Made by a program: the position numbers and the translations under genes. A stretch of DNA of 64,000 nucleotides from Comamonadaceae bacterium (GTDB lineage Bacteria > Pseudomonadota > Gammaproteobacteria > Burkholderiales > Burkholderiaceae_C). Every line of letters starts with the position of its first letter. The first letter of the stretch is position 1. Below, piece after piece: positions 1,950 through 33,316 of this stretch. Under the pieces are notes generated by a model. The model was given only the letters and a program-made list of their open reading frames with translations. It made no database searches and was not told the origin of the DNA. The stretch spans positions 1 through 64,000 of the forward strand of contig CANFXC010000006.1 in the NCBI GenBank assembly GCA_947450765.1, in the 5' to 3' direction.

Positions 1950-3311
1950 TCAGGCGGGAGCCTTGGCTGGCTTGAACGGAGTGCGCCGCTCGAGGTCTTC
2001 CATGTAGTTGGCAATGCCTTGCCCTTCGCGCTCCAGAAAACGCTCAACCGCATCGGCAAATGAGGGATGCGCCAGCCAATGCGCGCTGGTGGTTTTGACC
2101 GGCAACAGCGCCCGCGCCATCTTGTGCTCACCCTGCGCGCCGCCTTCAAAGCTGTGAAAACCGTGCTCGATGCACCACTGCAGGGGTTGGTAGTAGCATG
2201 CTTCAAAGTGCAGGCAATCAACGCGTTCGAGCGCGCCCCAATAGCGTCCGTAAGCTGTTTTTTGGACAGTCTCTGAGGGCGTCGACTGACCATCGCTTGC
2301 GAGCGTTTCCGCGCTCAGTGCGATCAGACTGCAGGCCATCGGCTCGCCGTCCTTTTCCGCCACAAACAGCAGCCAGTTCTCTGGCATGGTCTTGGCCATG
2401 CGCTCAAAAAAATCACGATTCAGGTAAGGCGCATTGCCATGCTCAAGATACGTGCGCTCGTAGCAACGGTAGAAAAAATCCCAATCTGCAGCGCTGATAT
2501 CAACACCTCGTGACCAGCGGAAAGCCACACCCGCTTCAGCCACCTTACGCCGCTCCTGGCGAATTTTTTTGCGCTTCTCCTGATTCAGAGAGGTTAAAAA
2601 ATCATCGAAATCTTTAAATCTTGTGGGGGCATTGTTTTCCCCGCCGGGCCGCCCCAAGGGGAAAAGCGCCCCTCTTTCTAGTTCATGGGGCAGCGCACCG
2701 CCGAAGGCACGCGAAGCGACAAGCGTGGGGGCCACATTCTTCCAGTGGAATTGAACCGTGTGACGCAGCATCAGCCCGGCCTCCGCACAAGCCGCAATGT
2801 CTTCATCCGCAGCAAACAGCATGTGCAGAGACGACAGCTGCTCGGCTTCACACCAAGCCATCAGCGCCTTGACCAGCATCACGCGCGAGGCGGCATCGCG
2901 CGCCAACAGGCGCGGGCCGGGCACGGGCGTGAACGGCGGTGCGACAACCGCTTTGGGGTAATAGGGCAGGCCGTGCTGCTGGTAGGCATTGGCCCAGGCC
3001 CAGTCAAAAACGTACTCACCATAAGAATGAGTCTTCAGGTACAGCGCGCAAGCAGCCATCAGCTTTTCGCCAACGTACAGCGCCACAAAGCGAGGCGTCC
3101 AACCGGTCTCGGGCGCGGCGCTGCCGCTGGCGTGCATGGCCGCCAAATACGCATGTCGCATGAAGGGGTTCAGCGTGCCTGCCGGGTTTTGCTGCGCCAG
3201 CAGGTCGTCCCACGCGATGGCATCTACCTCCAGAGGGGAATCGAAGACCCGAATGACATAATCATTGACGTTATTTTTCAATGGCTCTCTTTTCATTGAC
3301 TGTCTGCCCAT
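1950..3311 (-). CDS. GNAT/FemAB-like N-acyltransferase (COG3146 type) carrying a 34-aa in-frame insertion
   Basis: ORF 453 aa; RKKIRQERRKV, EGGAQGEHKMARALLPVKTTSAHWL motifs; exact start uncertain. Confidence 0.85.
   Translation of the reverse strand: MGRQSMKREPLKNNVNDYVIRVFDSPLEVDAIAWDDLLAQQNPAGTLNPFMRHAYLAAMHASGSAAPETGWTPRFVALYVGEKLMAACALYLKTHSYGEYVFDWAWANAYQQHGLPYYPKAVVAPPFTPVPGPRLLARDAASRVMLVKALMAWCEAEQLSSLHMLFAADEDIAACAEAGLMLRHTVQFHWKNVAPTLVASRAFGGALPHELERGALFPLGRPGGENNAPTRFKDFDDFLTSLNQEKRKKIRQERRKVAEAGVAFRWSRGVDISAADWDFFYRCYERTYLEHGNAPYLNRDFFERMAKTMPENWLLFVAEKDGEPMACSLIALSAETLASDGQSTPSETVQKTAYGRYWGALERVDCLHFEACYYQPLQWCIEHGFHSFEGGAQGEHKMARALLPVKTTSAHWLAHPSFADAVERFLEREGQGIANYMEDLERRTPFKPAKAPA
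2623..2732. repeat. Putative dispersed repeat element inserted in frame within the COG3146 gene
   Basis: Bounded by GTGGGGGC direct repeats (2623-2630 and 2725-2732), 102-bp period; encodes atypical peptide LVASRAFGGALPHELERGALFPLGRPGGENN. Confidence 0.7.
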
Positions 3312-10730: not shown

Positions 10731-10853
10731 ATGGCTTATTCGCCTTGCCCCATTTTGTCCATTGACCCGATTCAAGACGAATCTATTGCCTGCCAAGCCT
10801 GCACATTACCGTGTGCAGGGGAGGGCAGCGAAAAGAGGAATCCATTCTTATGA
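10731..10853 (+). CDS. Candidate 40-aa Cys-rich small ORF translationally coupled to ilvH
   Basis: ATG 10731 preceded by GAGG; MAYSPCPILSIDPIQDESIACQACTLPCAGEGSEKRNPFL*; stop TGA overlaps the ilvH ATG (ATGA). Confidence 0.4.
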   Translation: MAYSPCPILSIDPIQDESIACQACTLPCAGEGSEKRNPFL

Positions 10854-33119: not shown

Positions 33120-33254
33120 TTTGACCTGCCGTGGTCGCTGTCTCGGGCGAAACTGTCAACCTCGTGTCATCGTTCAGTGGCACAATATTGGATGTTTCTG
33201 AAGGCCCTTCCTGCCACAGTCGCATCCGCGAATCGGTCCAGCCGTGCTGCGGAA

Positions 33255-33305
33255 GGTTAATTAACAAGCTTTAACCAGCTAATGTTTCCCAAAGGGAAAC
33301 GGAGG
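33255..33305 (+). ncRNA. sucA-type 5'UTR cis-regulatory RNA (Burkholderiales sucA motif candidate)
   Basis: GGTTAA-N10-TTAACC hairpin, then GTTTCCC-AAA-GGGAAAC hairpin abutting the GGAGG SD of sucA. Confidence 0.6.
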
Positions 33306-33316
33306 TCAGCGTTCTC

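Follow-up and report, generated by a model that had tools for sequence, protein, structure and literature searches.

Within the window, the whole 64,000-nucleotide stretch of Comamonadaceae DNA analyzed here, a minus-strand gene for a FemAB-like protein contains a 34-codon segment that raises a simple question: is it part of the protein family, or is it a DNA repeat that came to rest there in frame? A first-pass annotation had favored the second answer, and the local features that it described proved accurate. The 8-bp direct repeat GTGGGGGC occurs twice, with the copies exactly 102 bp apart, and at no other position in the 64 kb on either strand; the palindrome CCCCAAGGGG was confirmed to the base, and the reading frame stays open across the segment (Table 1). 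We conclude that the segment is very likely a copy of a repeat that is dispersed in Comamonadaceae and some other Burkholderiales and prone to form tandems, and that this copy landed in frame in a loop of the FemAB-like protein. The repeat itself is very probably the Beta-proteobacterial repeat element (BRE).

Table 1. Features of the FemAB-like gene and its insert (window positions)
Feature	Position	Strand	Support
FemAB-like (PF04339) acyltransferase-fold gene, insert-bearing, 453 aa	1950..3311	-	Pfam match, FemX 1xf8 fold match
Repeat unit, 102 bp = 34 codons, residues 194-227, APTLVASRAFGGALPHELERGALFPLGRPGGENN	2631..2732	-	93% copy in own-genome metX
GCCCCCAC, first 8 bp of unit	2725..2732	-	
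GCCCCCAC, start of truncated second unit (other half of 8-bp direct repeat)	2623..2630	-	L069, L070: longer partial second unit
CCCCAAGGGG, inverted repeat within unit	2652..2661	.	no unusual folding energy
QFHW, residues 187-190, invariant end of strand preceding insertion loop	2742..2753	-	
Helix 235-240 (FDDFLT), after loop, opens second half of fold	2592..2609	-	

The host protein is a clear member of the PF04339 FemAB_like family (436 bits against a gathering score of 27, E = 1.2e-130). Its match falls into two stretches, the second beginning at residue 231, just beyond the insert. The best fold match in the PDB is FemX (1xf8). An AlphaFold model with a mean pLDDT of 85.2 has only one internal stretch below 50, residues 199-223, which belongs to the loop that connects strand 181-191 to helix 235-240. 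The insert fills this low-confidence loop, which joins the first half of the fold to the second, and is predicted to be disordered. No PDB chain carrying the peptide was credibly matched in either frame, and an Rfam scan gave no match at the insert.

The absence of a second copy from the 64-kb window had been remarked correctly; copies exist elsewhere in the genome. A search of the window's own genome, proposed at the outset as a check, found a copy at C5:70424-70535 (93% over 112 bp, E = 1.9e-42 to 2.1e-42), in frame in metX, along with six weaker matches, so that the repeat is not single-copy. Its repetition is far beyond chance. At E <= 0.001, matches were found in 36 of 61 genomes (its own, 36 from the same genus, and 24 from other families of the order) but, when the same search is counted by genus, in only 2 of 25, and a wider draw from the order gave the repeat in 11 of 300, spread over several families. 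With a peptide profile, the number of matches per genome ranged from 1 to more than 130 across 61 genomes of the genus. The finished 5,200,264-bp chromosome of G341, which we take to be Polaromonas sp. JS666 (NC_007948), has at least 52 matches, and about 10 of some 45 sites there are intragenic and in frame.

The common form of the repeat is GCCCCCACGCTTGTCGCTTCGCGTACTGCGCTGCCCCCCGAGGGGGCGCATTTTCCCTTGGGGCGGCCCGGCGGGGAAA, and the consensus is 73% GC. Tandem arrays mostly have a unit of 84 bp (the spacing in 5 of 5 cases within genes and in 18 of 26 outside them, the others being 82-119 bp); this is the modal length overall, units of 79-85 bp and partial matches of 46-47 bp also occur, and the 102-bp form in the window is a longer variant. 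Because all units of the tandem arrays begin with GCCCCCAC, the 8-bp repeat is most readily interpreted as the beginning of a truncated second unit. A target-site duplication was considered and seems the less likely reading: GCCCCCAC flanks the unit, yet it also begins each tandem unit, and the empty site of the orthologue L072 has GCCACCAC. The palindrome is present as described, but the marked RNA structure that it might imply is not, the folding being no better than that of shuffled sequence (z-scores of -0.58, 0.53, and 0.07). The ends of the repeat are not inverted, with 9 of 20 positions equal, and inspection of the consensus and of the window unit showed neither a GTAG nor a CGTC tetranucleotide at an end; on the other strand the end is GTGG.

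These properties suggested to us that the repeat is very probably BRE, an identification made on the description of that element. The original account gives BRE a full length of ∼90 bp (75-91) with partial copies of 40-60 bp, a tandem arrangement of variable number with some copies entirely within coding sequences, a high GC content (mean 69% in Bordetella), and a range within the Betaproteobacteria that includes the Comamonadaceae, Polaromonas sp. JS666 being richest with 29 copies (Hot et al. 2011, PMC3110155). Length, partial copies, tandem habit, GC, taxonomic range, and intragenic copies all agree, whereas the longer 102-bp form of the window copy is a difference. The gene lexA, used as a neighbor test of BRE identity, was absent from the loci examined. 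The account contains no analysis of reading frame, host proteins, or orthologues (PMC3110155).

The FemAB-like gene is one of many hosts. Of 113 non-redundant sites, chosen solely for their DNA similarity, 23 (20%) are intragenic and in frame, as judged by a codon-usage test of both flanks together with an open frame; one of the ORFs, L253:1089-3071, is without a Pfam match and was counted by codon usage alone. The same repeat lies in frame inside at least 20 other genes of relatives, most of them conserved. Curated models are interrupted in UvrA, heavy-metal ATPase, ThrC, RlmI, GcvP, CobQ, ValRS, FolC, RecJ, and MetX, as well as in a histidine kinase, a 5'-nucleotidase, and an RND pump, and further interrupted families include APH, alpha/beta hydrolase, SulP, and MFS. 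A peptide search added more sense inserts, in PEP carboxylase, FdhD, PGM/PMM, and others, which were left out of the frame test below. In the window's own genome, the homoserine O-succinyltransferase model matches metX in two stretches, and uvrA (L007/L279) contains an in-frame copy of opposite orientation.

The frames in use are highly restricted. At 20 of 21 different gene sites the element is read in just two of its six frames, one per orientation: a sense frame, APTLVASRTALPPEGAxFPxGGPxEN, and an antisense frame, SAGPPQGKxAPSGGSAxxEVxSVGA. The sole exception is the insert in the heavy-metal (P-type) ATPase of L056, which uses a third frame. Both favored frames give Gly/Pro/Ala-rich peptides, whereas the unused frames encode peptides rich in Arg, Cys, and His. 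In 69 non-genic full copies all six frames are open, at 58-97%, and when the test is weighted by this openness the bias has P = 2.7e-8 (1.0e-5 if four frames are taken as equally likely). The simplest reason for the bias would be that cells translate the inserts and that selection has removed the ones giving bad peptides.

At the FemAB site itself, an alignment overturned the expectation that no other orthologue would have the insert: the element was present in the loop after QFHW(K/T)N in 33 of 100 Comamonadaceae orthologues. It is always in frame, with 0 to 3 units at the site, partial units included, and all are open. Carriers include Polaromonas, Variovorax, Acidovorax, Hydrogenophaga, and Xenophilus relatives, among them the isolates Polaromonas sp. 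AER18D-145, Variovorax paradoxus ISL-79, and Xenophilus aerolatus. DNA alignment of the site shows the empty form GGCCACCAC in L072 and, in L071, an insert contracted by exactly one unit (93 bp) relative to an array of the L070 type; the variation among orthologues is gain, loss, or unit change. The empty close orthologue, the copies in the same genome and genus, the predicted disordered loop, and the occurrence of the same element in many genes together uphold the original reading of a repeat-derived, in-frame insert.

The occupation of one site in so many relatives would also be expected if the insert were ancestral in Comamonadaceae FemAB and had been lost many times; it would then be an old part of the protein and no repeat insertion. 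When the tree was built with the loop left out, presence of the insert was clustered, with 20 changes against 28.1 in shuffles and only 6 forced by starred branches; gain and loss are not distinguishable on this tree. However, the DNA is that of a dispersed repeat with copies both in unrelated genes and in intergenic DNA, and the MetX loop shows that independent insertion into one loop happens. We consider an old protein segment unlikely; a single old gain followed by many losses in FemAB alone would be compatible with a repeat origin.

The MetX loop holds the sense form in most species and the antisense form in L332, to which L322 is opposite in orientation. Two orientations in one loop require at least two insertions. 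The loops of L336 and L337 look like decayed antisense forms, those of L348-L351 contain no element, and the metX of L346 has contracted by one unit. In the solved MetX structure 2pl5 the loop is ∼7 residues long, and the insert falls between residues 241 and 249 in an alignment that we used in place of a structure model with a pLDDT of 48, which was set aside. We also observed a composite element in the MetX loop of L326, L334, and L341, whose second half is ALRLRPGEAGSAAPAGE and not the usual end.

A REP/RAYT system, with the repeat moved by the genome's Y1 tyrosine transposase, appeared attractive in that a Y1 transposase of RAYT size (∼240 aa) is encoded in 60 of the 61 genus genomes. This RAYT-like gene is single-copy and lies beside gltB (L290:1420-2169, plus strand; C34 of the window's genome). 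However, the eight loci checked have no repeat in the ∼1.5 kb on either side of the transposase gene, and the gene is present whether a genome has one repeat match or more than 130, with G338 and G003 having one match each. We rejected this origin as improbable on these two grounds, the transposase being unflanked in those eight loci and the link with repeat number missing; the transposase is apparently domesticated.

We compared the change accumulated in inserts and flanks. In 14 orthologous pairs, changes at the three codon positions number 73/48/86 in the inserts and 83/46/348 in the flanks; thus the flanks are constrained at the protein level and the inserts hardly so, with the frame kept. 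The insert peptide looks like a tolerated passenger, since the inserts show little codon-position bias, and it may be drifting under little constraint. Third-position change is slower in the inserts, at 14% (a figure biased downward by the picking of pairs with alignable inserts) versus 25% in the flanks. Such slower change is not what neutral drift by itself would give from the time the species parted, and it calls for younger insertion or for homogenization or exchange of copies.

A function of the element in the protein, such as binding, regulation, or localization, with the peptide kept by positive or purifying selection, would agree with the strong frame bias and with those orthologous inserts that are better conserved than their flanks. 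One of these is the window insert, which is nearly identical to that of L198, from a different species, at 115/117 positions and is identical over the 110 bp of 2623-2732, whereas the flanks stand at 0.892. The insert is better conserved than the flank in only 10 of 26 pairs, however, and this near-identity is therefore not a rule; general homogenization of orthologous inserts was rejected for the same reason. Together with the small codon-position bias, the fact that insert-free orthologues are common and intact, and the great differences among the host proteins, this makes a function of the peptide very improbable. An artefact of metagenome assembly or binning can be practically dismissed, even with a window genome in 151 contigs at 86.7% completeness, since the isolates named above carry the same FemAB insert, and like inserts lie in the finished chromosome of G341.

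Taken as a repeat insertion, the locus suggests the following course. The element would insert, with the reading frame preserved, into the loop that separates the halves of the FemAB-like protein, and its peptide would be translated into a floppy surface loop. Selection would filter such insertions, so that stop-free, Gly/Pro/Ala-rich peptides in accommodating loops survive. Whole units of 84, 93, or 102 bp may then be gained or lost through recombination or slippage between direct repeats, and since these units are multiples of three, the reading frame is kept. A more tentative possibility, which we rate as doubtful, is that the element is adapted to coding sequence, with codon-multiple units in most arrays, one benign frame per orientation, and repeated independent insertion into permissive loops making it a recurring supplier of disordered loops and length variation. 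Loops entered repeatedly in different lineages would be those of FemAB, MetX, the histidine kinase hairpin, CobQ, and RlmI; 84-bp units also lie between genes.

Rickettsia is the best-known setting for in-frame insertion of repeats in conserved proteins, which is commonly put down to the relaxed selection that acts on a small intracellular population. The Betaproteobacteria considered here are free-living and have ordinary genomes, and such insertions are frequent in them, reaching central enzymes such as UvrA, ValRS, GcvP, and PEP carboxylase. The Rickettsia palindromic elements (RPE) are short repeats in frame in many unrelated conserved genes whose proteins are apparently functional (PMC10969869, PMC2229807). 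The present repeat resembles them in lying in frame in many unrelated genes, which supports the analogy to a probably tolerated insert drawn in the first-pass annotation. It differs in being without terminal inverted repeats or a long stable stem-loop, and in occurring in Comamonadaceae, in both orientations, as tandem codon-multiple units inside genes. Intragenic GTAG/CGTC REPs are 20-40 bp long and RAYT-linked; they have been found in ORFs of several free-living species, some in the repair genes uvrA and recB and some at nearly matching sites of related species, and that report does not mention Polaromonas, Acidovorax, Rhodoferax, or Variovorax (Di Nocera et al. 2013, PMC3733652). Unlike REPs, the repeat described here has no GTAG/CGTC end tag and does not flank the transposase in the eight loci. 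The enterobacterial ERIC/RU MITEs are small open-frame repeats fused to genes (Delihas 2007, PMC2759123; PMC2229807); the reported fusions are comparatively few, and ERIC/RU have terminal inverted repeats and target-site duplications, the former of which are missing here.

The kind of phenomenon is thus already known from RPE and intragenic REPs, whereas its extent here, the two-frame rule, and the recurrent insertion into the same loop appear new. As read from DNA and predicted protein, the insert is real, repeat-derived, in frame, and probably translated, and the local case is one of many. These findings support the notion that repeats can supply ready-made floppy loops to proteins of free-living bacteria of the Polaromonas type and their relatives, beyond Rickettsia. 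The empty, filled, opposite-orientation, multi-copy, and contracted alleles of a gene form a natural loop-insertion experiment, and their range across relatives opens tolerance, frame filtering, and turnover to direct tests. For annotation, such inserts matter in that they break profile matches and resemble errors.

Several individual loci merit separate mention. Two of them come from other genera of the family: a CobQ gene (L171:189-2315, plus strand) has two separate in-frame copies, and in an RND efflux pump gene six antisense units of 84 bp form an in-frame array that encodes 164 residues (L173:1333-1826). The PEP carboxylase gene at L203:2972-6037 (minus strand) has an in-frame copy just after SRPASR, a loop that lies close to the active site of these enzymes. 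In the sensor histidine kinase of several species (L153, L200, L214, and L231), the element sits in the turn that follows DHp helix 1. Elsewhere in the window, Rfam identified an ilvH RNA (RF02993, 95.3 bits) at 10776-10843 and a sucA RNA motif (RF01070, 79.2 bits) at 33220-33311, both on the plus strand.
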